Assembly: GCF_000970285.1 (NCBI RefSeq)
Contig: NZ_CP009516.1
Location: 3,699,036 to 3,763,035, forward strand
Direction: 5' to 3'
Length of the DNA stretch: 64,000 bases
Source: Methanosarcina horonobensis HB-1 = JCM 15518
GTDB taxonomy: Archaea; Halobacteriota; Methanosarcinia; Methanosarcinales; Methanosarcinaceae
Shown in pieces: positions 2,251 to 48,493 of this stretch; the first letter of the stretch is position 1; every line of letters starts with the position of its first letter. The notes beneath the pieces were generated by a model, which was given only the letters and a program-made list of their open reading frames with translations, was not told the DNA's origin and made no database searches. The position numbers were made by a program, and so were the translations under genes.

Positions 2251-4266
2251 ATGAAGTTACCTGAGATTTACCATCATGATGATCATTCTCATAAAGATGA
2301 TCACGATCATCACAACCATAGTCATGACGGGGGAGACTTCACTGATTATACGGAAGCCGTGTCTGAATACAAAAAAAGTTTTCCGACGAAGGCAGAAGTG
2401 TTAGAGCATACACCTGATCCAGCGGTTAAAAAGATGTTATTGCAGATGGAGAAGGTCGGCTGTGAAACTCCTTTTGATCGTTTTGATCAGCAGAAGCCAC
2501 ATTGTAACTTCGGTATGGCGGGGATATGCTGCCGCAATTGTAATAACGGACCGTGCAGGATCACCAGAAAAAGCCCTAGAGGGGTATGTGGAGCGAACGC
2601 AGACCTCATTGTCGCAAGAAACCTGTTAAGATGGGTTGCTGCAGGCGTGGCTGCCCATGGTGCCAGAGGGCGAGAAATTATGCTTGCCTTAAAAGCTTCC
2701 GCAGAGGGTAGCCTGAGACTACCGATTGCAGGCGAGGAGAAATTAAGAAAATCCGCTGTTCAGTTAGGCATCGATATTGAAGGAAAAACAACAGACGCAG
2801 TCGCTTTGAAGGTTGCCGCCGCTCTCCTTGAGGATTTATCCAGAGCAGTGCCCGAAAAACATAAAACATTAAGTGCTTTTGCAACGCCGGAGCGAATAGA
2901 GGTATGGAAAGATCTGGATATTCTCCCGGTTGGCGCTTATCACGAAGTGTTTGAAGCTCTCCATCGGACAACCACGGGGACCGATGGGGATTGGAAGAAC
3001 GTTATGCAGCAGTTCCTGCGATGCGGTCTCGCCTTTGCCTGGACCAGCGCCCTTGGATCTTCAATTGCCATGGACAGTCTTTTCGGCCTGCCTGAGAGAA
3101 GCACGGTCAGGGTGAATGTCGGAGCTCTAAAGGAAGGATATGTGAATATCGCAATTCACGGTCACTCCCCTCTTCTTGTAAGCGAGATTATAAAGCAGGG
3201 GAGAAGTGAGGAGTTTGTATGTCTTGCAAAAGAAAATGGTGCTGAAGGAATTCAGTTTTACGGCATATGCTGTTCTGGGCTCTCTGCAATGTACCGCTAT
3301 GGCGGGGTAATACCGTTATCAAATGCAATTGGAGCAGAGCTTATACTCGGGACCGGTGCGCTTGACCTCTGGGTGGCCGATGTTCAGGACGTCTTCCCGA
3401 CAATCATTGATGTGGCAAAATGCTTTAAAACAACGGTAGTTACGACCAGTGATTCGGCAAAGCTGCCAGGGGCAGAACATTACGGCTATGACCATATTCA
3501 TTCAAACCTGAAAGAAACGGAAAATTTGGCGAAAAAAATAATCCGAAGGGCAATTGAAAGTTTCGCAGCAAGAAGGGATGTCCCGGTTTTCATTCCCGAT
3601 TACGAGGTTAACGCAGAAATAGGCTTTTCACTGGAGTACGCTGTAAGCCGTTTTGGAAGTATAGATGTTATCGCAGATGCATTGAAAGAAGGCAAGGTCG
3701 CCGGTGTGGTAAATCTGGTAGGATGCAGTAATACAAGAGTTGTTTATGAAAAAGCAGTTGCTGATGTAGCCACCAAATTAATCGAAAATAACATTCTGGT
3801 TCTCACCAACGGCTGTGCCTCATTCCCCTTAATGAAACTGGGTTTCTGCAACCAGGAGGCTCTTGACAGAACCGGAAGAGAGTTGAGAGGATTTTTAGAG
3901 CCTGACCTTCCTCCGGTATGGCATATGGGAGAGTGCATTGACAATGCCAGAGCGTCTGCGTTATTCAGGGCTTTATCTGACGCTTCAGGTAAAGATATCA
4001 AAGACATGCCGTTTGCACTTGCAAGCCCGGAGTGGTCAAACGAAAAAGGTCTGGGTGCTGCCCTTGGTTTCAGATTACTGGGCGTAAATTCATACCACTG
4101 TGTGCATCCTCCTGTACAGGGCTCGGAAAACGTCATGAAATACCTGTATGAAGATACCGGAGAGACCCTGGGCTCAGTAATGGTAGTGGAGTTAGATCCT
4201 TCGAAGCTCGCCGACAGGATAGTATCGGATATTCAGGAGAAAAGAAAAGCTCTCGGATGGAAGTAA
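2251..4266 (+). CDS. cooS: CooS-like carbon monoxide dehydrogenase family protein 1 (deviant C-cluster)
   Basis: This 671-residue protein belongs to the homodimeric CODH family (CO + H2O to CO2 in true members). It opens with a His/Asp tail (nine His in residues 8-25). The D-cluster cysteines are C85 and C93; the B-cluster cysteines are C94, C97, C102 and C113. H136 matches the proton-relay His, H305 the GHxP cluster ligand, C340/C341 the GICC motif, then C492, C522, C562 and catalytic Lys599 (NEKG). The position of the canonical DVQC ligand reads DVQD: residue 380 is Asp (codon 3388-3390). One C-cluster cysteine is therefore absent, and CO oxidation cannot be assumed. A GAGGT stretch lies about 10 bases before the ATG. 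An ABC operon follows after 51 bases. No cooC or cooF is adjacent. Confidence 0.85.
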   Translation: MKLPEIYHHDDHSHKDDHDHHNHSHDGGDFTDYTEAVSEYKKSFPTKAEVLEHTPDPAVKKMLLQMEKVGCETPFDRFDQQKPHCNFGMAGICCRNCNNGPCRITRKSPRGVCGANADLIVARNLLRWVAAGVAAHGARGREIMLALKASAEGSLRLPIAGEEKLRKSAVQLGIDIEGKTTDAVALKVAAALLEDLSRAVPEKHKTLSAFATPERIEVWKDLDILPVGAYHEVFEALHRTTTGTDGDWKNVMQQFLRCGLAFAWTSALGSSIAMDSLFGLPERSTVRVNVGALKEGYVNIAIHGHSPLLVSEIIKQGRSEEFVCLAKENGAEGIQFYGICCSGLSAMYRYGGVIPLSNAIGAELILGTGALDLWVADVQDVFPTIIDVAKCFKTTVVTTSDSAKLPGAEHYGYDHIHSNLKETENLAKKIIRRAIESFAARRDVPVFIPDYEVNAEIGFSLEYAVSRFGSIDVIADALKEGKVAGVVNLVGCSNTRVVYEKAVADVATKLIENNILVLTNGCASFPLMKLGFCNQEALDRTGRELRGFLEPDLPPVWHMGECIDNARASALFRALSDASGKDIKDMPFALASPEWSNEKGLGAALGFRLLGVNSYHCVHPPVQGSENVMKYLYEDTGETLGSVMVVELDPSKLADRIVSDIQEKRKALGWK

Positions 4267-4317
4267 GGACGATATTGAATATATAAAACCAATAAAATTT
4301 TAATCGGAGTAGTTAGG

Positions 4318-5289
4318 ATGAAAAAAGCAATTGTTGCAGTTGTGTCGGCTGTCATAATAGCGTCCTTGTTGTTCAGCCTGGTCGGTTGGGGCAATGATAA
4401 AGAAGAAAACTCTGCACAAAATGAAATCAAGACTGTGAAGATCGGTTATCTTCCAATCACCCATGCCCTTCCATTATTTGTTGAAAATGATCTTCCAGCA
4501 AATGATTCCAGGAACTTCAAAGTGGAACTGGTAAAGTTTGGTTCCTGGACTGAGCTCAGTGATGCGGTAAATAGCGGGCAGGTTGACGGTGCTTCTATGT
4601 TGATTGAACTTGCTATGAAATCAAAGGAGCAGGGAATCGATCTGAAAACCGTTGCCCTGGGACATAGAGACGGTAATGTGGTGGTCGTATCTAAGGATAT
4701 CAATGAGGTTGCTGATTTGAAAGGAAAAACTTTTGCAATTCCTCACAGGCTTTCAACTCACAACGTTCTTCTATACAAGATGCTGAAGGAAAATGACCTT
4801 ACAGTCAATGATCTGAATATTGTAGAGCTCCCACCACCGGAAATGCCAGCTGCTCTTTCCGAAGGAAGAATTTCAGGCTACGTAGTTGCAGAGCCTTTTG
4901 GAGCAGTAGCGGTAGCAAGCGGCAACGGGAAGGTATTGTTCGAATCCCGGGATTTATGGAGTGGTTCCGTGTGCTGTGGTCTTGTACTTAGAAACGATTT
5001 CATTGAAAACAACCCCACAGTTGCAGCGGAATTTGTAAAGGAATACGTCAGAGCGGGTGAAAGAGCCGAGTCCAAAGACCCCGAAGTTCTGGATGCTGCG
5101 AGCAGGTATATGAAAGTCGAACCTGAAGTACTCGACCTATCACTCCAGTGGATTTCCTACAATAACCTGAAGCTGGAAGAGAAGGATTACAATGAACTAT
5201 CCCAGTATCTTGTGGAAATGGAGCAAATGAAAAATCCTCCCAAATACTCGGAATTTGTGGATAATTCATTTATTGAAACGGTAAAGTGA
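4318..5289 (+). CDS. ABC transporter substrate-binding protein, NitT/TauT (SsuA/NMT1-like) type
   Basis: This 323-residue extracytoplasmic binding protein has a hydrophobic N-terminal segment (residues 4-24) followed by an NMT1/SsuA-like fold (VKIGYLPITHALPLF; LKGKTFAIPHRLSTHN). Relatives bind taurine, alkanesulfonates, nitrate or pyrimidine precursors; the ligand here is unknown. The segment ends LFSLVGWGND, where a lipobox would normally read VGC. A Trp codon (TGG) stands one base away from Cys, so this protein is either a membrane-anchored variant or a recent mutant. It lies 51 bases after the CooS-like gene and overlaps the permease start, so the four genes look co-transcribed. The ligand may serve the CooS-like enzyme, but that is inference. 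Confidence 0.8.
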   Translation: MKKAIVAVVSAVIIASLLFSLVGWGNDKEENSAQNEIKTVKIGYLPITHALPLFVENDLPANDSRNFKVELVKFGSWTELSDAVNSGQVDGASMLIELAMKSKEQGIDLKTVALGHRDGNVVVVSKDINEVADLKGKTFAIPHRLSTHNVLLYKMLKENDLTVNDLNIVELPPPEMPAALSEGRISGYVVAEPFGAVAVASGNGKVLFESRDLWSGSVCCGLVLRNDFIENNPTVAAEFVKEYVRAGERAESKDPEVLDAASRYMKVEPEVLDLSLQWISYNNLKLEEKDYNELSQYLVEMEQMKNPPKYSEFVDNSFIETVK

Positions 5290-6068
5290 GAACAATGGAA
5301 AGACTAAAAAAGGCAGGTACCGTCATTGTAAGCCTCACTTTGCTGGTTTTACTCTGGGAAATTGTGATTCTTACCGGAAGGTATGAATCATCCCTCCTTC
5401 CTTCCCCCTTTAAGGTTCTGGAAGGCATAGCTGAACTGATCAACGATGGAACCCTCGCTACTCATTTCCAGGTCAGCCTGTTAAGGTTCCTGACCGGGTA
5501 TTTGACGGCATCAGTTACAGGGATTTTCCTGGGTCTGACTCTTGGATATTACGGAAAAATGTGGGCTTTTATCGATCCTGTGGTGCAGGTGTTAAGACCT
5601 GTTTCGCCAATTGCATGGTTCCCGTTTATAGTTCTCTGGTTTGGCATTGGGGATTTGCCCGCTGTCGTGATCATTTTTATAGCGGCTTTTTATCCGGTTC
5701 TCCTATCAACCATTTCCGGAGTTAAAAAAGTAGATCCGATATACCTTAAAGTAGCTCAGAATTTCGGTATCAAACAACCAGATTTGTTGTCAAAAATTAT
5801 CTTTCCGGCAGCTTTTCCAATGATTACAAATGGTCTGTATATGGCATTGGGGTCAGCCTGGGTATTTCTGGTTGCCGGAGAAATGGTTGGAGCTCAATCA
5901 GGACTGGGATACTTGATAATTGATGCAAGAAATTCAATTCGGTCAGACCTTGTACTTGCCGGGATTATCTGCATAGGAGTGACAGGGTTTTTACTGGATA
6001 AAACGATCAGGCTTCTGGAAAACCGGGTGCAAAAGCAATGGGGAATGTCCCCAGAAAGGGTGAGTTGA
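5286..6068 (+). CDS. ABC transporter permease, NitT/TauT (SsuC/TauC-like) type
   Basis: A permease of about 257-260 residues with roughly six membrane helices. It carries the binding-protein-dependent transport motif that docks the ATPase (sequence around FYPVLLSTISGVKKVDP, then AAFPMITNGLYMALGSAW). The start is either GTG at 5286, overlapping the stop of the binding-protein gene by four bases, or ATG at 5295. The overlap suggests translational coupling. The length and helix pattern match SsuC, TauC and NrtB. With the flanking genes it makes a complete importer for a small, probably anionic, organic or nitrogenous solute. Confidence 0.85.
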   Translation: MRTMERLKKAGTVIVSLTLLVLLWEIVILTGRYESSLLPSPFKVLEGIAELINDGTLATHFQVSLLRFLTGYLTASVTGIFLGLTLGYYGKMWAFIDPVVQVLRPVSPIAWFPFIVLWFGIGDLPAVVIIFIAAFYPVLLSTISGVKKVDPIYLKVAQNFGIKQPDLLSKIIFPAAFPMITNGLYMALGSAWVFLVAGEMVGAQSGLGYLIIDARNSIRSDLVLAGIICIGVTGFLLDKTIRLLENRVQKQWGMSPERVS

Positions 6069-6069
6069 T

Positions 6070-6807
6070 ATGTTTATTTCTGTTGAAGGAGTATCAAAAA
6101 CATACGAGCTAAAGGACAAAAGTAACTCCGTAGCTCTGGAAAAAGTCGATTTATCAATTGAAGAAGGGAAATTCATCTGCCTGCTTGGTCCGAGTGGATG
6201 TGGAAAAACAACGCTCTTGAATATGATAGCAGGTTTTGATAAACCTTCTACTGGAGTTATTAAGATTAACGGAGGTGATGTTAACCAGCCTTCAATTGAT
6301 AGAATTGCTATATTTCAGAATTTTGGACTGCTGCCCTGGAGAACAGTAATCAAAAACGTAGAGTTGGGGCTGGAATCAAAAGGATTCGATGAGAAGAAGC
6401 GTCGTGAGATAGCTGAAGAATATCTCGAACTGGTAGGATTGTCGAATTACAAAAAACATCACCCTAACCAGCTTTCAGGTGGTATGCAGCAGAGAATTGC
6501 TATCGCAAGGGCTCTCGCGGTTGACCCGGAAATTCTTTTTATGGATGAGCCCTTCGGCGCCCTGGATGCAATGACAAAAATGACCATGCAGGATGAAATC
6601 GAAAGAATCTGGCAGGAGAAGAAAAAAACAATCATATTTGTTACACATGATATTGAAGAAGCAGTATTTTTAGCGGATAAAATTGTTGTTATGACAGCTG
6701 GTCCCGGAAAAGTGAAAAAAATCATTGATGTGCCGTTAGTCAGGAAAAGGGACAGAACCAGTCCTGATTTCCTGGCTATACGCGATAAGGTGTTTACGGA
6801 ATTATGA
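6070..6807 (+). CDS. ABC transporter ATPase, NitT/TauT (SsuB/TauB-like) type
   Basis: A 245-residue ATP-binding subunit with Walker A GPSGCGKTT near residue 40, Q-loop FQNFGLLPW, ABC signature LSGGMQQR, Walker B ILFMDEPFGALD, and the H-loop THDIEEA. The length and motif spellings are typical of the SsuB/TauB/NrtD group. It begins one base after the permease stop, behind a good ribosome binding site (GGGTGAG). It is the last gene of the cooS-like/ABC operon and converges on the short HMA reading frame, leaving 10 bases between the two stop codons. Confidence 0.9.
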   Translation: MFISVEGVSKTYELKDKSNSVALEKVDLSIEEGKFICLLGPSGCGKTTLLNMIAGFDKPSTGVIKINGGDVNQPSIDRIAIFQNFGLLPWRTVIKNVELGLESKGFDEKKRREIAEEYLELVGLSNYKKHHPNQLSGGMQQRIAIARALAVDPEILFMDEPFGALDAMTKMTMQDEIERIWQEKKKTIIFVTHDIEEAVFLADKIVVMTAGPGKVKKIIDVPLVRKRDRTSPDFLAIRDKVFTEL

Positions 6808-7184: not shown

Positions 7185-8840
7185 TCAGTCTCTGCGCAAT
7201 AGAGCAATGAGAGTTATAAGGATTGATCCTCCAAACCCGATAAGTCCTACCCAGGAAAGAGCACCTCCGTTCAGTAATATAAAAGTCGAGACAACGAGCA
7301 GGACAACAAGGAAAAACTCAGTAGAGAAAACACTGCGTTTGCTTTCTTTTTGTTTTCCTTCAAGGAATCTGTCCCCCATGTCTTCCATTTTGTCGACAAG
7401 CTCCCTGATCGCGGCCCTCAGTTCGGCTTTTTCATTCACTGGCTCGGCGGAGAATTCGATGTGCAGAGCAGGTCCTTTTGTGGCATTGAGTTTCTTGTAG
7501 GCATCCATAAGGACAGGGATTGCAATGCTTTTAATATTGTACCTCGGGTCAAGTTCGAGGCAGACTCCTTCTATAAGCAGGATTGCCCTCTGAAGAGTTG
7601 AGAATTCGCCGGGGAGTCGGATATCGTATTTCAGGCCCAGCTTTGCATAATTGTCGCTCTGGCGGCCTTCAAGCCCGTAGTTCTGGTTTGCAATCAATTC
7701 ATCCATGTCCTTTCTGAGCCTGCGGACATCCACATCTCTTGCGTCCGCACCTCCTATTTTCAGGAAGCTCTGTGTTGCCTCTTCTACATCCCTGTTATTG
7801 ATGGCGTAATAAAATTCAAGCATGTTCTTTTTGAGCTCGTCATCTATACTGCCAACAGCCCCGAAATCGATGAAAGCAATGGTGTCGTTCTCCTCAACCA
7901 GCATATTGCCGCCGTGGGGATCTGCATGGTAAAAGCCGTCAATATAAACCTGCTTCAGGTAACTCTTGGTAATCGTGCGAGTATATTCGGACTTTTTGCT
8001 TTGAGGCACCTGCATGTCAATTATGTCTTTAATCTGGGTTCCCTGAATAAATTCCATTGTAAGGACATTTGCCGAACAGAAATCCGGATAAATTTTAGGT
8101 ACAGCAACATTTTTCACATTCTTAAAATTATCTTCAAAACGTCTCATATTAACAGCTTCAATCCTGAGGTCAACTTCCCGTGTAAGCATTTCCCGGATTT
8201 CCAGCAAAAAAGCGTCAATGTCAAAGTTCTTTCCTATTCCCAGGACCCTTTTCACTACAGGCTTGAAGTCGTCAAGAATCGAAAGGTCAATATTTATAAT
8301 GTCAATCAGGTTCGGACGGAGAATCTTGACAGCTACGGGCTTGCCTTCAAGGACGCCTTTATAGACCTGAGCAATAGACCCGCATGCAATCGGATCAGGG
8401 TCAAAGCTGTCGAAAATCTTAATAAAGGCTCTGGCTTTTCTTTCCCTTGCAGCTTTCAGCTGCTCTTCACTTTTTTTCCTGTTTCTTTCCTCAGGTATCT
8501 GATACTCACACACGCATGCAAGATCAAGAGATTCAGCCATCTCTTCAAAAGGCACAGGCTTAACCTTATCCTGCAAATTCGACATTTCAATGACATATGG
8601 CTGGGGCACAAGGTCAGGCCGCTTGCTCATAGTTTGACCCATCTTGATAAAAGTGGGTCCGAGCTCTTCAAAAGCTTGCCTGAGTTTTACTGCTGTCTGC
8701 CTGTTTTCAAGGTCAAAATCACAGGTACAATCGGTATTTGAAATATAATCGGTGCGCAGATCCCGGTAGAGTTCGGGAATAAGATTGTACTTCAAAAGAA
8801 CTCTTGTAACCTCAAGATAGCGCTTTGTTTTCTCCAGCAT
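7185..8840 (-). CDS. AarF/ABC1/UbiB family kinase-like protein with C-terminal membrane helices
   Basis: A 551-residue atypical kinase-like protein. The family hallmark KxGQ appears as FIKMGQTMSKRPD near residue 66, followed by GSIAQVYKG (glycine-rich loop with AAAS/K-type changes), VAVKILRP, the catalytic HADPHGGNM and metal-binding IAFIDFGAVG. The C-terminus has two hydrophobic stretches (about residues 508-548), suggesting membrane anchoring. Bacterial and eukaryotic relatives support quinone synthesis and lipid functions. In Methanosarcina it might relate to methanophenazine or isoprenoid lipid metabolism, which is inference. It is a single-gene unit on the minus strand. A long open frame on the opposite strand (7914-8741) is a shadow. 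Confidence 0.85.
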   Translation of the reverse strand: MLEKTKRYLEVTRVLLKYNLIPELYRDLRTDYISNTDCTCDFDLENRQTAVKLRQAFEELGPTFIKMGQTMSKRPDLVPQPYVIEMSNLQDKVKPVPFEEMAESLDLACVCEYQIPEERNRKKSEEQLKAARERKARAFIKIFDSFDPDPIACGSIAQVYKGVLEGKPVAVKILRPNLIDIINIDLSILDDFKPVVKRVLGIGKNFDIDAFLLEIREMLTREVDLRIEAVNMRRFEDNFKNVKNVAVPKIYPDFCSANVLTMEFIQGTQIKDIIDMQVPQSKKSEYTRTITKSYLKQVYIDGFYHADPHGGNMLVEENDTIAFIDFGAVGSIDDELKKNMLEFYYAINNRDVEEATQSFLKIGGADARDVDVRRLRKDMDELIANQNYGLEGRQSDNYAKLGLKYDIRLPGEFSTLQRAILLIEGVCLELDPRYNIKSIAIPVLMDAYKKLNATKGPALHIEFSAEPVNEKAELRAAIRELVDKMEDMGDRFLEGKQKESKRSVFSTEFFLVVLLVVSTFILLNGGALSWVGLIGFGGSILITLIALLRRD

Positions 8841-9049: not shown

Positions 9050-10000
9050 ATGTTACTCGCACCCATGTTGCTTACTATCCTCACACAATCGGCCGAGTAT
9101 CTTTTAAAAACAGGTCCTTCAATAGTCCTGGGAGTTGTCCTTGCCGAATTTCTTGTAAGCTTCGGCTGGTTCTACAAATTTGATTTTCTGGTAAAACCGG
9201 TCACAAACTACGCCCATCTCAAAAAAGAATGTGGAGTAAGTTTCCTTACGGCTTTTGCATCCACCTCCTCGGCTAATGCTTCACTTAAAAGTATGTATGA
9301 CGGAGGAATCATAAAGGAAGATGAACTGATCATAGCCTCGGTTTTGAACTCCTTTCCTGCAATTGTCATGCACTGGAGAACCCTGCTTCCGGTACTTGTA
9401 CCCCTGCTCGGGACAACAGGGATAATCTATGTCGGACTGATAACGCTCGTAGGTTTTGTAAAAACTCTAATCGTAATTATTGCCGGACATTTCCTGCTTG
9501 AAGAAAAAGATGTACATTTTGAAGACTTTGAAAAGAAAGATTCTCCTACATTGAAGACGGCTTTTAAAGAAAGCCTGGGGACTTCGAAGAAAACCGTAGT
9601 CAGGATTTTCAAAGTGATGGTGCCGGTAACAATCCTCGTTTTTGCTCTGACAGACCTGGGAGTCTTTGATTCCTTTGGCTCGTATCTCAAACCCATCTCG
9701 GAATACCTACCCGTACCTGTGGAAGGACTCCCTGTAATTGCAGCCCTTTTTGCAAGTCATCTTGCAGCCTATACCCTTTCGGCAAACCTTATGGAACAGG
9801 GAATCTTAAACGGCATTGAAGTAATAATCGTCCTCCTAATAGGCAATATAGTAACAAGCCTCGGGACGCTGAGAATTTATATTCCGCATTATGTAGGGAT
9901 CTTCGGTCCCAAAATAGGGATGAAAACCATTCTGATTTCCCAGACCCTAAGAATATTTGTTATGGTTGGAATCACAGGATTCATTTTAGTAGTTTTTTAA
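9050..10000 (+). CDS. Multi-pass membrane protein with nucleoside-recognition (Gate)-like repeats
   Basis: A 316-residue protein with about eight membrane segments. Two regions resemble the Gate/nucleoside-recognition fold seen in spore-maturation and YjiH/YjiG-type proteins (GVSFLTAFASTSSANASL near residue 63; LPVIAALFASHLAAYTLSANL near 225). Each has a Ser/Ala-rich break in a helix, as in the family. No substrate is known for such archaeal proteins. The start is ATG at 9050 or 9065. It stands alone between the kinase-like gene and the double-cubane gene, on the same strand as the latter with 137 bases between. Confidence 0.6.
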   Translation: MLLAPMLLTILTQSAEYLLKTGPSIVLGVVLAEFLVSFGWFYKFDFLVKPVTNYAHLKKECGVSFLTAFASTSSANASLKSMYDGGIIKEDELIIASVLNSFPAIVMHWRTLLPVLVPLLGTTGIIYVGLITLVGFVKTLIVIIAGHFLLEEKDVHFEDFEKKDSPTLKTAFKESLGTSKKTVVRIFKVMVPVTILVFALTDLGVFDSFGSYLKPISEYLPVPVEGLPVIAALFASHLAAYTLSANLMEQGILNGIEVIIVLLIGNIVTSLGTLRIYIPHYVGIFGPKIGMKTILISQTLRIFVMVGITGFILVVF

Positions 10001-10137: not shown

Positions 10138-11322
10138 ATGACACATTTTGAAGCGACATGTTTTGAAACTCTTGATTATATTAAAAACTCATATAGTGCC
10201 CGGATCTGCCAGCTAGAAGAGGAAAAGAAAGCCGGAAAGAAGATAGTTGGCACTTTATGCCTGTTCGTACCTGATGAGATAATCTTTGCGGCAGGAGCAG
10301 ACCGCGTTATACTCTGCGGGGGTAAGAATGATGCTGTGTCCATAGCTGAGCAGTACTTGCCAAGGAACATATGTCCACTTATCAAGTCTTCCTTTGGCTC
10401 GATCGTAAATAACGGTTATTCAGGTGTAAAATCCTGCTCTCACTTTGGTCTTGTAGATATGGTCGTCGCCGAGAATACATGCGATAGCAAAAAAAAGACT
10501 TATGAATTAATGGGAGACTATGTCCCGACTTATGTACTCGACCTCCCTCAGAAACCTGAGGGCCCTGCTGCCGTAAAATATTTTCTGGAAGAGCTTAACA
10601 AATTCAAAGGCATCATGGAAGAGCTGACAGGCAATAAGGTCACAGTCGAACAATTAAAGAAAGAAATAATCTCCTCGAACGAGACAAGAAAGCTGCTACA
10701 CAGGCTCTATGACCTGCGAAAAAGAGAGTATCCCCCAATCAGCGGTTTAGATATGATAAAGGTCATGCAAAAGCAGTATGTTTTATCGGCAGAAGATTTT
10801 AAAGAAGCACTTCGGACCCTCATTAACGAAGCAGAGCAGACCAGGGCTGATTCCATTGCTGGTTCTAAGGATGAGTTTACTCACAGGCCCAGAATAATGA
10901 TCTCAGGCTGCCCGATGCCGGGCGGGAGTACCAAAGTTCCGGAAATTATAGAGAACAGAGGTGGTTTAATTGTCGTGGAGGAAAGCTGTACGGGCACAAG
11001 ATCGTTCTGGGACCTGGTAGACGAAAACAAAGATCCCATGACTGCGCTTGCCGAACGCTACATCAAAATACCATGTTCCTGCATGACTCCGAACGACAGG
11101 CGTATCGATAACATTCTGGAACTTGCAAGAGAGTTTAAAGTCGATGGTGTGGTGAACTATACCCTGCAGTTCTGCCACGGTTACAATATCGAGCGGTACA
11201 AGGTACAGCAAGCTCTGAAAAATGCCGGAATACCCGTACTTTCAATAGAAACGGACTACAGCGACTCGGATGTTGAGCAGATAGGACTTCGCGTGGATGC
11301 TTTTATGGAGATGCTTTCATGA
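10138..11322 (+). CDS. Double-cubane-cluster protein (HgdB/BcrC/DCCP family) reductase component
   Basis: This 394-residue protein belongs to the 2-hydroxyglutaryl-CoA dehydratase D-component family (PF06050). It carries the cysteine spread expected of double-cubane proteins: C41 (GTLCLFVPDE), C60, C79 (RNICPL), C100, C115 (ENTCDSKKKTYEL), C258 (SGCPMPGG), C284 (EESCTGTR), C313 and C315 (IPCSCMTPNDRR), and C346 (LQFCHGYN). Family members are reduced by an ATP-driven activator. Dehydratases act on acyl-CoAs, whereas the DCCP branch reduces small molecules such as acetylene or hydrazine. A single 394-residue subunit paired with one activator fits the DCCP branch better than two-subunit dehydratases. 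The native substrate is unknown. It overlaps the activator gene by four bases. Confidence 0.75.
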   Translation: MTHFEATCFETLDYIKNSYSARICQLEEEKKAGKKIVGTLCLFVPDEIIFAAGADRVILCGGKNDAVSIAEQYLPRNICPLIKSSFGSIVNNGYSGVKSCSHFGLVDMVVAENTCDSKKKTYELMGDYVPTYVLDLPQKPEGPAAVKYFLEELNKFKGIMEELTGNKVTVEQLKKEIISSNETRKLLHRLYDLRKREYPPISGLDMIKVMQKQYVLSAEDFKEALRTLINEAEQTRADSIAGSKDEFTHRPRIMISGCPMPGGSTKVPEIIENRGGLIVVEESCTGTRSFWDLVDENKDPMTALAERYIKIPCSCMTPNDRRIDNILELAREFKVDGVVNYTLQFCHGYNIERYKVQQALKNAGIPVLSIETDYSDSDVEQIGLRVDAFMEMLS

Positions 11323-12092
11323 TCTCAGTGGGAATAGATTCGGGTTCTGCCACTACAAAAGCTGTCCTGGTAATTGACGGCAGGATCGCCGCTAATAATA
11401 TACGTCCAACAGGGTTCGATTTTTTATCAGCCGCAAAAAATGGGTACGAAGACGCACTCACCAATGCCGGAATCGACAAAAAAGATGTAAACGGCATATA
11501 CGCAACCGGATATGGTAGAAACAGCATAAAGTTTGCCGATAAAGCAGTAAGCGAGATCACAGCCCATACAATGGGCGTCTATCACCTCTATCCGGCTGTC
11601 AACGGGATTATTGACATCGGAGGCCAGGACAGTAAGATTATCTCGGTAAGTGACGGTAAGGTAACTGATTTTCTAATGAACGACAAATGTGCGGCTGGAA
11701 CGGGTAAATTCCTTGAATATACCGCAAAGGCGCTTGAAGTACCGATAGAGGAACTGGGTAGCCTGGCTCTTGTTTCAAAAGAACCTGCCAGCATTACAAG
11801 CATGTGTACCGTATTTGCCGAATCTGAGGTTATATCTCTCAGGGCAAGAGGATTTAAAAAAGAGGATATAGCGGCAGGGCTCATTGAAAGCATCGCCAGA
11901 AGGGTTGCGGTTATGGTCCGGCAGGTAGGATTAAAACAAAACGTGGCTTTTGTAGGTGGTGTTGCAAAAAATGCGGGCATTAAGGTGTTTCTGGAAAAAG
12001 AACTGAATATTTCGCTCTACGTACCTCCTGAGCCACAAATTACAGGAGCGCTTGGAGCTGCACTGTACGGCGTTAGTAAAAAAGTTAAGTAA
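11319..12092 (+). CDS. ATP-dependent activator of the double-cubane protein (BadF/BadG/HgdC family)
   Basis: A 257-residue ASKHA-fold ATPase with IGIDSGSATTKAV at the N-terminus, the central DIGGQDSK motif near residue 99, NDKCAAGTGKF (C124), SMCTVFAESE (C163) and the C-terminal GALGAALYG. The two Cys would hold one [4Fe-4S] cluster at the homodimer interface. ATP hydrolysis would drive low-potential electron transfer to the partner encoded just upstream. The ATGA overlap with that gene makes co-translation and a 1:1 complex likely. The length (about 255) is standard for HgdC and DCCP reductases. The electron source is probably ferredoxin (inference). Confidence 0.85.
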   Translation: MISVGIDSGSATTKAVLVIDGRIAANNIRPTGFDFLSAAKNGYEDALTNAGIDKKDVNGIYATGYGRNSIKFADKAVSEITAHTMGVYHLYPAVNGIIDIGGQDSKIISVSDGKVTDFLMNDKCAAGTGKFLEYTAKALEVPIEELGSLALVSKEPASITSMCTVFAESEVISLRARGFKKEDIAAGLIESIARRVAVMVRQVGLKQNVAFVGGVAKNAGIKVFLEKELNISLYVPPEPQITGALGAALYGVSKKVK

Positions 12093-12394: not shown

Positions 12395-13777
12395 TTATTT
12401 CCCATTTAGTTGTCGGGTATCCTTGAAATAAGACTGCGTTTCTGATGAGTTTAGTCCGGTAACAAAAAATGCTTTCCTGAAATTAAGGTAATAATCATCA
12501 TATCTATCGCGTTTATGCGAGTCGTTGAAAATTGCCTGCTGAGAATTGGGATACGAATCGCTGATCCATTTACCCATCTGCGTGCTAAAGTCCTGGTCTT
12601 CCGTGCCAGACCACACCATGACCTCACCGGTATAATTTGACCGGTTCAGACTAAAATGTGGAGTTGGGATTGTACCATCAACGTTAGCTTTTAAAAAGTC
12701 AGCAAGGACAACCCCCGTCCATTCACACATTAAATTTACTTCCTGAGAAGAAGCAGGATTATACTCCTGTAGATCTGCACCTATCAACTCATACATCCTT
12801 ACCTTTACCTCCAGTTCGGAGGGAATACTAATTATGAAACTAACGAAAGGAAAGTTATAGGGAGGATTAATCCATTTTTTAAAATACAGATATTTGTCTT
12901 TTAACTTAGATCCTTCAACCTGGCTTTCAACGACTCTGGTTTGTGATTCTTTATCACCTTCCAGACCTAATTTGAACATAGTAAATGCTAGAGATGTCCT
13001 TGTCTCATTCCGGGATAAAACAAAGTAGACTTTTGCTGCTTCTGGATTCTGCTCATACAAATTATTAGCAAAAGTTACGTTATGTTGCTGTGCGATATCT
13101 GGAGCTCCGCTGAACTCGATAAGTGCACGGGAAACATGAGAACCGTATTTGTCCAGGTATTGCTGAACTAAAAATCCTCCACCTGATCCACCATAGAGCA
13201 TTATTCTTCCATCATGGGGAAGAAGTCCCTTTTTTTGCATATCCTGCCTTACAGCTTCTAGATCTTCAATTTGCTGGGATGAGCCATATAACTTTAAAGC
13301 AAGATTATAGTTGACTGTCCCGTTTTTATAGTAAACCTCCGGAAACAGTGTTGGATTAACTCCACGGTTGCCTATGAGTACATACGAAAGCCCTTCCAGG
13401 TTATTTTCAAAGTACTCAAAATCATCGGGAGAATTAATCATCCCCACCGCTTCCTGCTGGTTATCAAAAAGCCAGAAAATGACTTCTTCACCCTGCTTGA
13501 AGTTAGGGCTCAGGATATAAAAGTCCGTAAAATTTCCTTTGGAAGGGTTATTATGATCGATTGGTAACTGTAAATAGTAATGATGGCTATCTGGTGGCAT
13601 CTCTGGATAGTAACTTCCAGTAGCAAGTCTCGTAGTAGGTACAGAAGTAAATTCTTTATATTCATAATATCCATATACAAGGCTTCCCACAAAGATAACT
13701 AACGTTATGAATTTGAAAAACTTAAGACCTTTCATTTTATACTTCAACTGGATAACCTCGTCCATTATTGATTTCAT
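12395..13777 (-). CDS. Membrane-anchored alpha/beta hydrolase, peptidase S33-like
   Basis: A 460-residue protein with one N-terminal membrane helix (about residues 19-38, FFKFITLVIFVGSLVYG), so the body is probably outside the cell. The nucleophile motif is YGGSGGGFLVQQYL near residue 193, a GxSxG variant. A late Asp (SGTEDQDFS) and His (NDSHKRDRYDDYY) complete a plausible catalytic triad. The layout resembles proline iminopeptidase and tripeptidyl aminopeptidase-type hydrolases. Substrate and exact family are uncertain. It is a single gene on the minus strand. The 349 bases upstream (13778-14126) are AT-rich and hold no other gene. Confidence 0.6.
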   Translation of the reverse strand: MKSIMDEVIQLKYKMKGLKFFKFITLVIFVGSLVYGYYEYKEFTSVPTTRLATGSYYPEMPPDSHHYYLQLPIDHNNPSKGNFTDFYILSPNFKQGEEVIFWLFDNQQEAVGMINSPDDFEYFENNLEGLSYVLIGNRGVNPTLFPEVYYKNGTVNYNLALKLYGSSQQIEDLEAVRQDMQKKGLLPHDGRIMLYGGSGGGFLVQQYLDKYGSHVSRALIEFSGAPDIAQQHNVTFANNLYEQNPEAAKVYFVLSRNETRTSLAFTMFKLGLEGDKESQTRVVESQVEGSKLKDKYLYFKKWINPPYNFPFVSFIISIPSELEVKVRMYELIGADLQEYNPASSQEVNLMCEWTGVVLADFLKANVDGTIPTPHFSLNRSNYTGEVMVWSGTEDQDFSTQMGKWISDSYPNSQQAIFNDSHKRDRYDDYYLNFRKAFFVTGLNSSETQSYFKDTRQLNGK

Positions 13778-22425: not shown

Positions 22426-23697
22426 TCAGGTTTTATTTTCTTTTCTGACAGGCAGGGTCTGCCCCCCATGAGGCATGAGGTGAACCTTTGCGTCGGGATT
22501 TTCCGAAAGGACAGCAGACAGTGCGTCCTGTACACTTGCCATAGGGGTAAAGAATGCGGTTCTGGCTTTTTCTTCAGGAAGCTTTGAGACCAGGTAAAGC
22601 TTGAATTTCTTTGCGGCTTTTGCAACAATCGCACTCTTGTGGCCTCCGAACTCGAAGCATTGCTTGAAACGTTCTATTGCATCTTCCGGATTTTTACACT
22701 CCATGTTCCAGCACTCATAAACCTGATTTCCTATTCCTTCTGCACATTCCGCTACAAGGATAATCGAACCGCCATCCTTCACAGCCTGGGTTGCGTTGTC
22801 CAGAGCCTTGTTTGCCTGGTAGAGATTGATGTCTTTAGGATAGCCTCCGCAGGAAACGACTACAGCATCTGCAGGTTCTACGGGAACTTTATACATTGCA
22901 TCCACAATCTCTACCCCTTTCCTGTGGGCTTCGATAAAATCACCTGCAACTGCAGCAACAATTCCTTTCTTGCTGTCAAGCACAACATTAAGAATAAACT
23001 TCAGGCCGAAGACTTTTGCAGCTTCCTCCATATCCTGCCTGACAGGACTGTCTACCCTTCCGGAAACCGCATTTTCATCTATCATCATTTTATGGTTGGT
23101 AAGCACAGCTTCCTCGGAGCTGACACCGGGAAGTACGGACTTTGCTCCCCCGCTATATCCTGCATAGTAATGGAACTCTATTCCTCCAGTTCCAATAACG
23201 AAATCAGCATCGAGAACTTCCTCAAAGATATCAATGGGAGTGCCACGGCTGGTTGTTCCTATCCTTCTGCATCTGGAAGTATCGTGCTGTATGCAACGGG
23301 TTTTTTTGTAGATATCTTCCCCAACCAGTTTCTTTGATTCTTCTTCAGTTTGCTGGCGGTGGAGTCCGAGAGCAAATATAATAGTAATGTTCTCATCCTT
23401 TGCTCCACCAAGGTAAAGCTCTTCAAGTAAAGGAGGAAGAATTTTTGCTGTAGGAGTGGGCCTGGTAACATCGCTTACGATAATTGCAATCCTGGACTTT
23501 GGGTTTACAATCTCGGAAAGTCTCCTGCTCTTGATAGGATTCTCGAGAGCTTTCCTGATTAAAAGACCTTCATCTTCCTTTTTTTCGGGTTCTGAAGGCA
23601 GGATCAGGCTGGAAATATTTTTTTCAGGGATATTCAGCTCAGAAATCCCATTTCCGAAAGCAAGTGGAATCTTTTTTATATTTGTCATCATGTTCAT
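22426..23697 (-). CDS. larA: LarA-family nickel-pincer racemase/epimerase, paralogue 1
   Basis: A protein of about 423 residues in the LarA (DUF2088) family. LarA racemizes lactate using a Ni-pincer nucleotide; relatives act on other 2-hydroxyacids. Expected active-site residues are present: His in FALGLHRQQ, the HYYAGYSGGAKSVLPG block (His and the cofactor-linking Lys), and His in VLTNHKMM. The frame could begin 45 bases earlier (23742), but a TATA-like TTTTATATTA lies inside that extension (23718-23727), about 25 bases before the ATG at 23697. A leaderless mRNA starting there is likely. larB, larC and larE, which make the cofactor, are not in the window. Confidence 0.8.
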   Translation of the reverse strand: MNMMTNIKKIPLAFGNGISELNIPEKNISSLILPSEPEKKEDEGLLIRKALENPIKSRRLSEIVNPKSRIAIIVSDVTRPTPTAKILPPLLEELYLGGAKDENITIIFALGLHRQQTEEESKKLVGEDIYKKTRCIQHDTSRCRRIGTTSRGTPIDIFEEVLDADFVIGTGGIEFHYYAGYSGGAKSVLPGVSSEEAVLTNHKMMIDENAVSGRVDSPVRQDMEEAAKVFGLKFILNVVLDSKKGIVAAVAGDFIEAHRKGVEIVDAMYKVPVEPADAVVVSCGGYPKDINLYQANKALDNATQAVKDGGSIILVAECAEGIGNQVYECWNMECKNPEDAIERFKQCFEFGGHKSAIVAKAAKKFKLYLVSKLPEEKARTAFFTPMASVQDALSAVLSENPDAKVHLMPHGGQTLPVRKENKT

Positions 23698-23717
23698 GCC
23701 GATGATTTCGTATTGAT

Positions 23718-23727
23718 AATATAAAAC
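23718..23727 (-). promoter_or_regulatory. TATA box of LarA paralogue 1
   Basis: TTTTATATTA on the minus strand lies about 25 bases upstream of the ATG at 23697. The same element with the same flanks stands before paralogue 2 (25127-25136), so the promoter was duplicated with the gene. Confidence 0.5.
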
Positions 23728-23837
23728 CATATAGGTAAACAATATTAAGGATTAAAATTGTGATTTAAACTTCAGTCAAACAAACAGTACAAGCTTTACA
23801 GGTCTATTTCTTTTTGCACCTTTGTTTACCTGTTATC

Positions 23838-25106
23838 TCACTTCCGGACAGGTAGAGTCCACCCTCCATCGGGTACTATGTGAACTTTTGCCTCAGGATT
23901 CTCTGCAAGAATATTTTCAAGGGCTTCCTGTACGCTTTTTGCTGGAATGAAGAAAGCTCTTCTGCTTTCCTCTTCGGAAAGTTTTGAAACAATATAGAGT
24001 CTGAACTGTTTTGCAGCTTTTGCAACGATTGCGCTTTTATGTCCTCCGAACTCGAAGAACTGCTTAAATCGTTCTATAGAGTCGTCCGGGCTTTTGCATT
24101 CTCTGTTCCAGCATTCATAGACCTGGTTTCCAATTCCTTCTGCACACTCAGCTATGAGTACAATCGAGCCTCCTGTTTTCACGGCAGGGACAGCATTTTC
24201 CAGGGCTTTTGTTGCCTGATAGAGGTTGATGTCTTTGGGATAGCCACCGCAGGAAACAATTACTGCATCAGCTGGCTCTACGGGCACTTTATACATGGCA
24301 TCTACATATTCTGCCCCTCTCCTGTGAGCCTGGACAAAGTCCCCGGCAACGGCGGCAATAATTTCTTTTTTGCTGTTAATTACCACGTTCAGGATAAAAT
24401 CAAGACCTGCAGTTCCTGCAGCTTCTTCAATATCTTTCCTTGCAGGGCTGTCGATTCTACCCGAAAGGGGTTCTCCTTCGAAAAACTTGCTATAGTGACT
24501 GTGGAATGAAAGTACGGCTTTTTCCGAACTGACTCCAGGAAGGATGGACTTACCCCCTCCGCCATAACCTGCATAATAATGGAACTCAATTGTTCCGGTG
24601 CTGATAATTAGATCTGCATCCAGAACTTCTTCAAAGACCTCAGTCGGAGTCCCAAAACTCGTTTCCCCTATGTGCCTGCACCTGTCTTTATCGTGCTGGA
24701 TAAATCTAATACTTTTGGAAATATTCTCACCCAGGAGCTTTCTGCACTCCTCTTCAGTCTGCTGGCGGTGAAGTCCGAGAGCAAATACAATAGTGATGTT
24801 CTCGTTCTTTGCTCCACCAAGGTAAAGCTCTTCGAGTAAAGGAGGGAGAATTTTTGCTGTAGGAGTGGGCCTGGTAACATCGCTTACGATAATCGCAATC
24901 CTGATTTCAGGGGTTACAATCTCCGAGAGTCTCCTGCTCTTGATAGGATTCTCGAGTGCTTTCCTGATTAAAAGAGCCTCGTCTTCTTTTTGTTCAGGTT
25001 CTGAAGGCAGGATCAGGCTGGAGATATTTTTCTCAGGGATATTCAGCTCAAAAACCTCATTTCCGAAAGCAAGTGGAATCTTTTTTATATTTGTCGTCAT
25101 GTTCAT
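23838..25106 (-). CDS. larA: LarA-family nickel-pincer racemase/epimerase, paralogue 2
   Basis: About 422 residues, very similar to the neighbour downstream and oriented the same way, so this is a tandem duplication. It keeps FALGLHRQQ, HYYAGYGGGGKSILPG and a His-bearing loop, but that loop differs (VLSFHSHYSKFFEGEP against VLTNHKMMIDENAV in paralogue 1), which may change the hydroxyacid used. The start at 25106 is chosen for the same reason as in paralogue 1: a duplicated TATA box about 25 bases upstream. The upstream interval to 25653 holds no other gene except a 38-codon frame. Confidence 0.8.
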   Translation of the reverse strand: MNMTTNIKKIPLAFGNEVFELNIPEKNISSLILPSEPEQKEDEALLIRKALENPIKSRRLSEIVTPEIRIAIIVSDVTRPTPTAKILPPLLEELYLGGAKNENITIVFALGLHRQQTEEECRKLLGENISKSIRFIQHDKDRCRHIGETSFGTPTEVFEEVLDADLIISTGTIEFHYYAGYGGGGKSILPGVSSEKAVLSFHSHYSKFFEGEPLSGRIDSPARKDIEEAAGTAGLDFILNVVINSKKEIIAAVAGDFVQAHRRGAEYVDAMYKVPVEPADAVIVSCGGYPKDINLYQATKALENAVPAVKTGGSIVLIAECAEGIGNQVYECWNRECKSPDDSIERFKQFFEFGGHKSAIVAKAAKQFRLYIVSKLSEEESRRAFFIPAKSVQEALENILAENPEAKVHIVPDGGWTLPVRK

Positions 25107-25151
25107 GCCGGTGAGTTCATATTGATAATATAAAACCGTATAGGTAAACAA

Positions 25152-27961: not shown

Positions 27962-29863
27962 ATGGACAAAGAAAGAATTTCCTATCACGAGTCCGTTCAA
28001 AAAATGTATGAGCGGATAAAGAAAGATAATATGACAAATGTTTGGGATCGTTATGAGGCTCAGGGAATAGGCGGAGTTCCGGACAGGAGATGCACTTTCT
28101 GTATGGCAGGAGCCCGCTGCGACCTTTGTTCCAACGGCCCATGTCGTTCGGACGCTGAAAAGGACAAAAGAGGAGTCTGTGGGATCACCGCTGACGGAAT
28201 GGCAATGCGGATGATGCTCCTCAGAAACGTAATGGGGGCTTCGACCTATCACTATCATACCGACCAGACTATACGGACTTTGAGAGAAACCGCAAAGGGT
28301 AAAACCCCCTACAGTATCAGAGAACCTGAGAAACTGAGGACATTTGCAGGCAGGCTCGGGATAGAAACCCTCGGAAGTGATTCCGAAATTGCCCTTAACC
28401 TGTGCGACTTTGTGGAAAAGGACTTCAGCAGGCCTGCATACGAGCCAAGCAGGATTGTTGAGATACTTGCCCCTCCCGAAAGAAAGAAAAGGTGGGAAGA
28501 GCTGGGAATATTCCCGGGAGGGATCTACGGGGAGATGATGTTTTCAACGAGCTCCTGCCTGACAAACGTTGACGGATACTACGCGAGCCTGGCCCTGAAA
28601 GCTATGCGTCTTGGAATTGCGATGGCATACCAGAGCCAGATCGTAAACGAATACTGCCAGGATATCCTTTTCGGAATCCCAAAACCTCATATGATGAGGG
28701 TTGACCTCGGGGTGCTCGACCCAGGGTATGTAAACGTACTTCCGAACGGGCATGAACCTTTCCTGGGCTTTGCCATGGTTCAGCTCGCAAGAAAACCTGA
28801 ATGGCAGGAAAAAGCAAAAGCAGCCGGAGCAAAAGGACTGAGGATCATTGCCAGCATAGAAACCGGGCAGGAAATGATCCAGAGGTGGGAGGAAGACGAT
28901 GCTTTCTACGGTTTTACCGGCAACTGGATTTCCCAGGAGGCTGTGCTTGCAAGCGGGAGTGTGGACCTTTTTGCCGCAGACATGAACTGCTCGCTTCCGG
29001 TAGCTCCTCTCTATGCTGAGAAATACGGGTTCAAACTCATGCCCGTAAGCGAGCTTATAGCTTTTGAAGGGATTAACGAGCGCCTGAACTATAACCCTGC
29101 GGAAGCTGGAAGACAGGCAGCAAAACTCCTGAATATGGCAATCGAAAACTTCAAAAACCGAAAAAGCTCGGTAGAACCCGTATCAAATCTTCCGGTAAAA
29201 GAAGCAGTCGTTGGTTTTTCAACCGAGAGTATACTTGATGCCCTGGGAGGTACCCTTGACCCGCTCCTTGATGCTATAAAAAGCGGTGCGATTAAGGGAG
29301 TAGTCGGGATGGTCTCCTGCACTACGTTAAGGGACTACGGGCAGGATGTACACAGTGTTGCCGTGGTAAAAGAACTGATTAAAAGGGATATACTTGTCCT
29401 GTCCATGGGCTGCGGGAACGGAGCTATGCAGGTGGCAGGCCTCTGCTCCCCCGAAGCCAGGGAGTTTGCAGGAGACAGCCTGAAGGCAGTTTGTGAAGCC
29501 CTTGGAGTCCCTCCCGTACTCAGCTACGGGACATGCACCGATACCGGCAGGCTTGCCGACCTTCTCGGAGCCATCTCCGCAGTCCTGGGAGCCCCTGTCC
29601 CTGACCTCCCGGTTGCTGCCGCAGCTCCCGAATACATGGAACAAAAAGCCACAATCGATGCCATCTTTGCCCTGGCCCTCGGGCTCTATACCTATGTGAA
29701 CCCTGTCCCGACCGTCACCGGGGCACCTGATCTGGTCAAACTGCTAACCGAGGACTGCCGGGAAGTTACAGGCGGGATACTGAATGTGGAAAAGGATGCC
29801 GTTAAGGCAGCTGACGGGATAGAGCAGCACATAATGGAGAAGAGAAAGAAGCTGGGGATCTGA
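27962..29863 (+). CDS. cooS: CooS-like carbon monoxide dehydrogenase family protein 2 (deviant C-cluster)
   Basis: A 633-residue CODH-family protein, clearly diverged from the one at 2251. B-cluster cysteines C53, C56, C61 and C73 are present. The D-cluster pair reads C44-T-F-C47 (CX2C) instead of the longer spacing of most CooS, and the usual second D-cluster cysteine position is Arg52. C-cluster ligands kept are H264 (NGHEP), C343 (ADMNC), C453, C484 and C525, with Lys562. The GICC motif is replaced by ASIETG: residues 299-300 are Ile-Glu (Glu codon 28859-28861). The cysteine that binds the unique iron in CODH is therefore missing. CO oxidation is doubtful. GGAG lies 8 bases before the ATG. 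No cooC, cooF or transporter is adjacent. Confidence 0.82.
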   Translation: MDKERISYHESVQKMYERIKKDNMTNVWDRYEAQGIGGVPDRRCTFCMAGARCDLCSNGPCRSDAEKDKRGVCGITADGMAMRMMLLRNVMGASTYHYHTDQTIRTLRETAKGKTPYSIREPEKLRTFAGRLGIETLGSDSEIALNLCDFVEKDFSRPAYEPSRIVEILAPPERKKRWEELGIFPGGIYGEMMFSTSSCLTNVDGYYASLALKAMRLGIAMAYQSQIVNEYCQDILFGIPKPHMMRVDLGVLDPGYVNVLPNGHEPFLGFAMVQLARKPEWQEKAKAAGAKGLRIIASIETGQEMIQRWEEDDAFYGFTGNWISQEAVLASGSVDLFAADMNCSLPVAPLYAEKYGFKLMPVSELIAFEGINERLNYNPAEAGRQAAKLLNMAIENFKNRKSSVEPVSNLPVKEAVVGFSTESILDALGGTLDPLLDAIKSGAIKGVVGMVSCTTLRDYGQDVHSVAVVKELIKRDILVLSMGCGNGAMQVAGLCSPEAREFAGDSLKAVCEALGVPPVLSYGTCTDTGRLADLLGAISAVLGAPVPDLPVAAAAPEYMEQKATIDAIFALALGLYTYVNPVPTVTGAPDLVKLLTEDCREVTGGILNVEKDAVKAADGIEQHIMEKRKKLGI

Positions 29864-38337: not shown

Positions 38338-38748
38338 TTACAAATCAAGAGGTTTCCTGTTCAGGATATAATGGATCATCTTCTGATTGAGTTTGCTTTC
38401 TCGGATTATCTTCTCTGTGATTTTGTCGTTGGGAACTCCTTCTGCTTTCATATTTCTTATTTTACTCATAACTGAAGGAGGTACGGTGTAATATTCGTTT
38501 ATGTCTTTTCTATGACCCCAGACATCTCCTTCAAGCAACTGAATTTTTTGCATTTCCAGAAACATCTCCATAGACTTTGAGATAGTCCGCTGATATGAGT
38601 TCGGAAGCTGGACTATTTCGAGCTTGGGACATGTTTCAACAAGCAAAAAGATATCCTTATTCGAAGGCCTGAACGCAAGATGAATTACCTTTTCGTTCGG
38701 GTTTAAGGAGAGAATTTCATCTCTTGAACTTACAACTCTTATTTTCAT
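38338..38748 (-). CDS. DUF1699 family protein, paralogue 1
   Basis: A 136-residue protein that starts MKIRVVSSRDEI, with the shared blocks VIHLAFRPSNKDIF, ETCPKLE, QLPNSYQRTISKSMEMFLEMQ and LEGDVWGHRKDINEYY, and a helical C-terminus ending in IHYILNRK. It belongs to DUF1699, a small soluble family I know only from Methanosarcina-type archaea. The function is unknown; the C-terminal helices (about residues 90-130) could be a helix-turn-helix-like domain, which is a guess. Two paralogues lie at 39238 and 48086. GGGGGAA precedes the ATG, and a TATA-like AATATTTAAATATT lies about 50 bases upstream. Confidence 0.8.
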   Translation of the reverse strand: MKIRVVSSRDEILSLNPNEKVIHLAFRPSNKDIFLLVETCPKLEIVQLPNSYQRTISKSMEMFLEMQKIQLLEGDVWGHRKDINEYYTVPPSVMSKIRNMKAEGVPNDKITEKIIRESKLNQKMIHYILNRKPLDL

Positions 38749-39237: not shown

Positions 39238-39651
39238 TCAGGACAGTTCGGCGCCTTTTCTGCTGAGAATGTAGAGAATCATGTCTGAATTCAGCTTACT
39301 TTCTCTTGAAAGCTTTTCGGCAATCATCTCATTTGAAAACCGGTCGGCTTTTAATTCCTGAATTTTCTCAAGAACATTCTGAGAGACATTATAATATTCG
39401 TTTATGTCCTTCCGATGGCCCCATACATCCCCTTCAAGAAGATTTATTTTCTGCATTTCCAGGAACATCTCTATTGACTTTGAAACGGTCCTTCTGTAAG
39501 ATTTAGGAAGCTGTATGGCTTCGATTTTAGGACATGTTTCAGCAAGCATGAATACATCCTTGTTAGACGGCCTGAAAGCAAGGTGGATAACCTTTTCATT
39601 CGGGTTTAGGGTAGGAATTTCCTCCCGTGAACTAACTACTCTTATTTTCAT
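39238..39651 (-). CDS. DUF1699 family protein, paralogue 2
   Basis: A 137-residue paralogue of the neighbouring gene: MKIRVVSSREEIPTLNPNEK, HLAFRPSNKDVFML, QLPKSYRRTVSKSIEMFLEMQ, EGDVWGHRKDINEYYNV. The core (residues 1-85) is strongly conserved among all three copies and the C-terminal helical part varies, as if a common fold carried different specificities. Same strand as paralogue 1, 489 bases away, each with its own leader and terminator-like hairpins, so they are expressed separately. A GTGGGGAT-type ribosome binding site precedes the ATG. Confidence 0.8.
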   Translation of the reverse strand: MKIRVVSSREEIPTLNPNEKVIHLAFRPSNKDVFMLAETCPKIEAIQLPKSYRRTVSKSIEMFLEMQKINLLEGDVWGHRKDINEYYNVSQNVLEKIQELKADRFSNEMIAEKLSRESKLNSDMILYILSRKGAELS

Positions 39652-48085: not shown

Positions 48086-48493
48086 TCAGGCGGTAATTTC
48101 CTTATTCAGGATATAAGCGACCATCTCAGGGTTAAGCTTGCTTTCCCTTGCGATCTTTTTCTCAATCTCTTCAGTTGGTTTGCCTTCCATCTTCATTTCT
48201 TTAATTTTTTCAATTACTGAGGATGGAATACTGTAGTATTCGTTAATGTCCTTCCTGTGACCCCATACATCTCCTTCGATAAGCTGGACCCTCTGCATCT
48301 GAAGGAACATTTCTATGGACTTTGAAACGGTGCGCATATAGGATTTGGGTAACTGGATTACCTCAATCTTTGGACATGTCTCAACCAGTCCAAAGATATC
48401 CTTGTTTGAAGGTCTGAAAGCCAGGTGAACAATACGCTCATTCGGATTAAGTGTAAAGATTTCTTCTCTTGAACTAACCACTCTTATTCTCAT
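48086..48493 (-). CDS. DUF1699 family protein, paralogue 3
   Basis: A 135-residue third copy of the family: MRIRVVSSREEIFTLNPNER, HLAFRPSNKDIFGLVETCPKIE, QLPKSYMRTVSKSIEMFLQMQ, EGDVWGHRKDINEYYSI. It is 9 kb from the other two, separated by hisD, hel308, rli and others. It has the same GTGGGGGA ribosome binding site and a TATA-like ATTTATAATA about 100 bases upstream. The 581-base interval upstream is gene-free. The function is unknown; conservation of the first 85 residues in all three suggests one biochemical role. Confidence 0.8.
   Translation of the reverse strand: MRIRVVSSREEIFTLNPNERIVHLAFRPSNKDIFGLVETCPKIEVIQLPKSYMRTVSKSIEMFLQMQRVQLIEGDVWGHRKDINEYYSIPSSVIEKIKEMKMEGKPTEEIEKKIARESKLNPEMVAYILNKEITA

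Follow-up and report, generated by a model that had tools for sequence, protein, structure and literature searches.

A gene pair of the double-cubane-cluster reductase type in Methanosarcina horonobensis

Described relatives and the locus

Of the ATP-driven reductases that carry an eight-iron cluster, leaving aside the nitrogenase-type enzymes, the simplest is the double-cubane-cluster protein (DCCP). In Carboxydothermus hydrogenoformans (PDB 6eno, 7yyl) it is encoded by one PF06050 gene, paired with one gene for its activator, DCCP-R. Structures have been solved for DCCP and for BzdN of class I benzoyl-CoA reductase (8s02), and in both proteins an [8Fe-9S] cluster is held by six cysteines (PMC11971306). 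DCCP reduces acetylene, hydrazine, and azide, activities that a preliminary description of the locus studied here had also named; it does not reduce N2, and the physiological relevance of its activities has been called unclear (PMC11971306). A literature search found no biochemistry of any archaeal DCCP and no papers on DCCP in Methanosarcina.

The window analyzed here, a stretch of 64,000 nt from Methanosarcina horonobensis HB-1 = JCM 15518 (NZ_CP009516.1, positions 3,699,036 to 3,763,035), contains a gene pair of the same composition. The first open reading frame (ORF; positions 10138–11322, plus strand) encodes 394 aa and matches PF06050 with 404 bits, while the second (11319–12092, plus strand) encodes 257 aa and matches PF01869 with 226 bits; neither score is due to chance. 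The two ORFs share four bases (ATGA), such that the ATG of the activator gene overlaps the TGA of the DCCP gene, with the junction reading ...TTTCATGATCTC.... The DCCP ORF encodes exactly 12 cysteines, at residues 8, 24, 41, 60, 79, 100, 115, 258, 284, 313, 315, and 346. The preliminary description had reported an HgdB-type protein with about 12 cysteines and an HgdC-type activator overlapping by four bases, and both ORFs, at the coordinates first noted, the cysteine count, and the overlap were confirmed. The genome, a single contig of 5,018,607 bases, has only one PF06050 gene, that at 10138–11322, and two PF01869 genes, one for the window activator and one for methanogenesis marker 15. The window protein is ~41% identical to C. 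hydrogenoformans DCCP, and the genomic setting differs between the two organisms.

Assignment of the reductase and its activator

Evidence for the identity of the first protein came from the NCBI curated equivalog model NF040772, for double-cubane-cluster-containing anaerobic reductases, which it matches with 473 bits, above the model's threshold of 350. The same protein scores below the curated cut-offs for BzdN (125 bits versus 454) and BcrC (85 versus 421), and its 124 bits with the HadC model are far under the cut-off of that model. Its closest solved relatives in sequence are DCCP (6eno/7yyl, E 1e-84), BzdN (1e-33), and HadC (1e-22). In an alignment of 25 relatives, all six cysteines common to DCCP (6eno) and BzdN are present in the window protein (C41, C79, C115, C284, C313, and C346, with C315 as an alternative to C313), together with the extra DCCP-type cysteines Cys60, Cys100, and Cys315. 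The same alignment shows HadC without equivalents of C41 and C284, and MbdN without equivalents of C41, C284, and C313; the cluster of HadC is smaller than [8Fe-9S]. Because these cysteines are conserved between DCCP and BzdN, we infer that Cys41, Cys79, Cys115, Cys284, Cys313 (or Cys315), and Cys346 are the candidate ligands of an [8Fe-9S] cluster in the window protein.

In a maximum-likelihood tree, the window protein groups with DCCP and Escherichia coli YjiM, and this group is split from BzdN, HadC, and MbdN at 100/99. The branches of the tree are long and the order within the wider PF06050 family is uncertain, so only this split was used. YjiM has the same cysteine set as the window protein, with 37% identity, and enterobacterial YjiM carries the same NCBI name, double-cubane reductase. 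One difference is that DUF3343 (YtiA) follows YjiL in E. coli, whereas DUF3343 is absent from the window genome. An AlphaFold model of the window protein, built with 14 sequences and of moderate confidence (pLDDT 68, pTM 0.71), has DCCP chains as its closest structural matches (E 2e-28, TM 0.77, 38–39% identity), followed by BzdN and HadC. The preliminary description had taken placement within the CoA dehydratases as evidence against a DCCP; in the tree, the window protein lies outside both these enzymes and BzdN, and the predicted structure, also proposed there as a check, folds best onto DCCP.

Membership of the PF06050 superfamily also raises the question of whether the window protein is a subunit of a 2-hydroxyacyl-CoA dehydratase or a benzoyl-CoA reductase that acts on a CoA thioester. 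BzdN, which resembles the window protein in its six cysteines and its fold, likewise carries an [8Fe-9S] cluster (PMC11971306), and the HMMs of BzdN and HadC both match the window protein weakly. However, such enzymes need two different PF06050 subunits, while the genome encodes one. BzdN itself forms a heterodimer with BzdO that acts on benzoyl-CoA, is 26% identical to the window protein, and lies on a separate branch. No CoA-transferase or acyl-CoA genes were found among the neighbors scanned in the window, in agreement with the preliminary description, which had considered a dehydratase role unlikely on that ground. The single PF06050 gene, the scores far under the cut-offs, and the split in the tree largely refute a role on CoA thioesters, the least probable of the readings considered here.

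The second protein matches TIGR00241 (acyl-CoA dehydratase activase) with 299 bits, against a cut-off of 125, and is assigned as a DCCP-R-type activator, an ASKHA-fold ATPase. Its best solved relatives in sequence are MbdQ, HadI, and HgdC, which come ahead of DCCP-R. In activators of the HgdC/DCCP-R type, two cysteine motifs hold one [4Fe-4S] cluster between two subunits. The window activator has only two cysteines, at residues 124 (NDKCAAGTG) and 163 (SMCTVFAESEV), and these would be expected to bridge one [4Fe-4S] cluster in an activator homodimer. Methanogenesis marker 15 (TIGR03286) is a related activator-type ATPase, and the preliminary description had named placement among methanogenesis-marker proteins as a reason to abandon its assignment. 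This identity was rejected: the window activator reaches 160 bits against a cut-off of 456, while the marker 15 protein of the genome is encoded by a different gene, which scores 494 bits.

The single PF06050 gene is adjoined by one activator gene, as in DCCP, and the DCCP gene keeps an adjacent activator gene at almost every homologous locus that was inspected. The DCCP/DCCP-R assignment of the preliminary description thus agrees with the curated model, the six-cysteine set, the tree, the fold, and the arrangement of a single-subunit gene with its activator. Judged by these comparisons, the pair is a further DCCP and an activator of known type, as current NCBI models already name it.

The pair very probably functions as a DCCP and its activator, with ATP-driven electron transfer onto a double-cubane cluster that reduces a small molecule. 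The family, ligand set, activator motifs, and gene pairing in this model come from the present analysis, while the cluster type, the coupling to ATP, and the homodimer are taken from Carboxydothermus DCCP. The activator homodimer would accept an electron, probably from ferredoxin, onto its bridging [4Fe-4S] cluster, and would bind and hydrolyze ATP. By analogy, the electron would then be driven, at very low potential, to the [8Fe-9S] double-cubane cluster, which in each subunit of a DCCP homodimer would be held by six cysteines. The double-cubane cluster of DCCP would, by the same analogy, reduce the small molecule.

Neighboring genes and loss within the genus

The gene nearest upstream of the pair (9050–10000, plus strand), 137 bp from the DCCP gene, encodes a membrane protein with a Gate domain (PF07670, by profile match). 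Orthologues with at least 78% identity occur in 10 Methanosarcina genomes, 7 of which lack a DCCP over the cut-off, while at two loci (L019 and L037) an intact or broken DCCP gene is present and the Gate-domain gene is missing. Because the orthologue and DCCP occur apart, the Gate-domain gene was rejected as a partner transporter and is regarded as a positional neighbor.

Farther upstream, cooS and ssuABC-like genes occupy 2251–6807. The preliminary description had placed the pair 3.3 kb beyond this cooS-like/ABC operon, and the distance is as stated, measured from the operon end at 6807. This proximity could mean that the pair belongs to a CO-dehydrogenase/ABC-transport module, and DCCP genes of Calderihabitans go down in response to CO (PMC7306483). 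However, a kinase-like gene (7185–8840) on the opposite strand lies between the two groups of genes, and the cooS/ABC genes are therefore regarded as a separate unit. Among nine related loci, cooS was seen only at one that lacks DCCP (L098), although most of the DCCP-bearing stretches are too short to reach cooS. A functional tie between the DCCP pair and the cooS/ABC genes is unsupported, and membership of a common module is very improbable.

The window has a second cooS-type CO dehydrogenase gene, at 27962–29863, that is 32% identical to the first (2251–4266); the two score 759 and 526 bits, respectively, with TIGR01702. The first encodes a His-rich N-terminus and is followed by the SsuABC-like transporter. 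In an alignment of the two, VQDVFP of the first copy stands opposite MNCSLP of the second, and ASIETG of the second stands opposite ICCSG of the first, such that each copy seems one cysteine short at what we take to be a C-cluster ligand position. The window also contains tandem LarA-type genes (22426–23742 and 23838–25151) that are 77% identical, the first of which passes the model for the nickel-dependent malate racemase LarAH6 (593 bits, cut-off 500). Three similar ORFs of ~136 aa (MKIRVVSSR-EI...), at 38338–38748, 39238–39651, and 48086–48493, form a small paralogous family. The minus-strand ORF at 12395–13777 (460 aa) has no match in Pfam or NCBIfam.

The cut-off of NF040772 is exceeded in 28 of the 393 genomes sampled from the phylum and in 8 of the 31 from Methanosarcina. 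Broken DCCP copies were found in three further Methanosarcina genomes (G002, G010, and G017). At two loci (L037, 6001–7219; L040, 6001–7141), frameshifts interrupt the DCCP gene, and the downstream activator gene is intact. At the homologous locus of a genome of 5,751,492 bases (L096), presumably that of M. acetivorans, DCCP is absent and the Gate-domain gene is accompanied by small activator fragments (9062–9329); a similar remnant is present in another genome (G009). These patchy, frameshifted, and remnant copies lead us to infer that part of the genus had the pair at this locus ancestrally and that it is repeatedly being lost. Given genetically tractable Methanosarcina strains, a natural copy, and close relatives that have lost it, the substrate question can be tested in this genus.

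Sulfur, selenium, or nitrogen compounds as substrates

Information on the substrate came from genes that neighbor DCCP in other genomes. Small genes for sulfur carriers or redox proteins were found within 7 kb of archaeal DCCP genes: DsrE at 8 loci (chance expectation, 0.27), OsmC at 6 (0.15), and CGGC at 6 (0.14), in counts that treat related genomes as independent and involve few lineages. The loci with DsrE span at least three lineages (Methanosarcina, family f15, and G381, a genome of the Methanoperedens type). The gene for the putative selenium/sulfur carrier DUF3343/Se_S_carrier adjoins yjiM-yjiL in both E. coli and Klebsiella. Since sulfur-carrier genes adjoin related DCCP genes in archaea and bacteria, the natural substrate of DCCP may be a sulfur-containing small molecule, a suggestion that we put forward weakly. 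At the window locus, no sulfur genes adjoin the pair, and the six DsrE matches of the genome lie elsewhere; the substrate of the window copy therefore remains a guess. Tentatively, archaeal DCCP might act as an ATP-driven reductase of sulfur species that is fed by, or feeds, a sulfur-carrier relay (DsrE, OsmC, CGGC, DUF3343), as a sulfur counterpart of the proposed selenium link in bacteria. In Methanosarcina, such an activity would be niche-specific, dispensable, and now being lost. The neighbor-gene statistics make sulfur chemistry the first thing worth testing.

A role in selenium metabolism has been proposed for bacterial DCCP, whose genes, together with those of the activator, have been linked to selenium gene clusters (PMC10418091; PMC5322559, Table 1). 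Consistent with such a link, NF040772 and Se_S_carrier match the same two of 14 control genomes, those of E. coli and Methanocaldococcus jannaschii. However, SelD exceeds its curated cut-off in none of the 30 DCCP-bearing archaeal genomes tested, the window genome included, and the window genome lacks the Se_S_carrier protein. Since SelD was not found above its cut-off in these 30 genomes, the pair is quite unlikely to serve selenium metabolism here, which leaves sulfur as the natural alternative.

The in vitro activities of Carboxydothermus DCCP point to another possible function, in which the pair would detoxify or scavenge azide, hydrazine, hydroxylamine, or acetylene. NifH-family genes are present in the window genome (best match, 406 bits). 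While this is consistent with a role in the chemistry of small nitrogen compounds, the nearest NifH-family match is more than 200 kb away and the pair has no adjoining gene of nitrogen metabolism; the published doubt about the relevance of these activities in the cell applies here as well. We consider detoxification or scavenging doubtful, somewhat less probable than the reduction of a sulfur species and clearly more probable than a role in selenium metabolism.

A stand-alone archaeal threonyl-tRNA-synthetase editing domain (PF08915) also lies within 7 kb of DCCP, at 8 loci versus 0.20 expected, in a count that likewise treats related genomes as independent and involves few lineages. It is found beside DCCP in several genera (L079, 5257–5676; L081, 8821–9240; L022, 4711–5130; L039, 5225–5635), and the genomes concerned usually also encode a full threonyl-tRNA synthetase with that domain.
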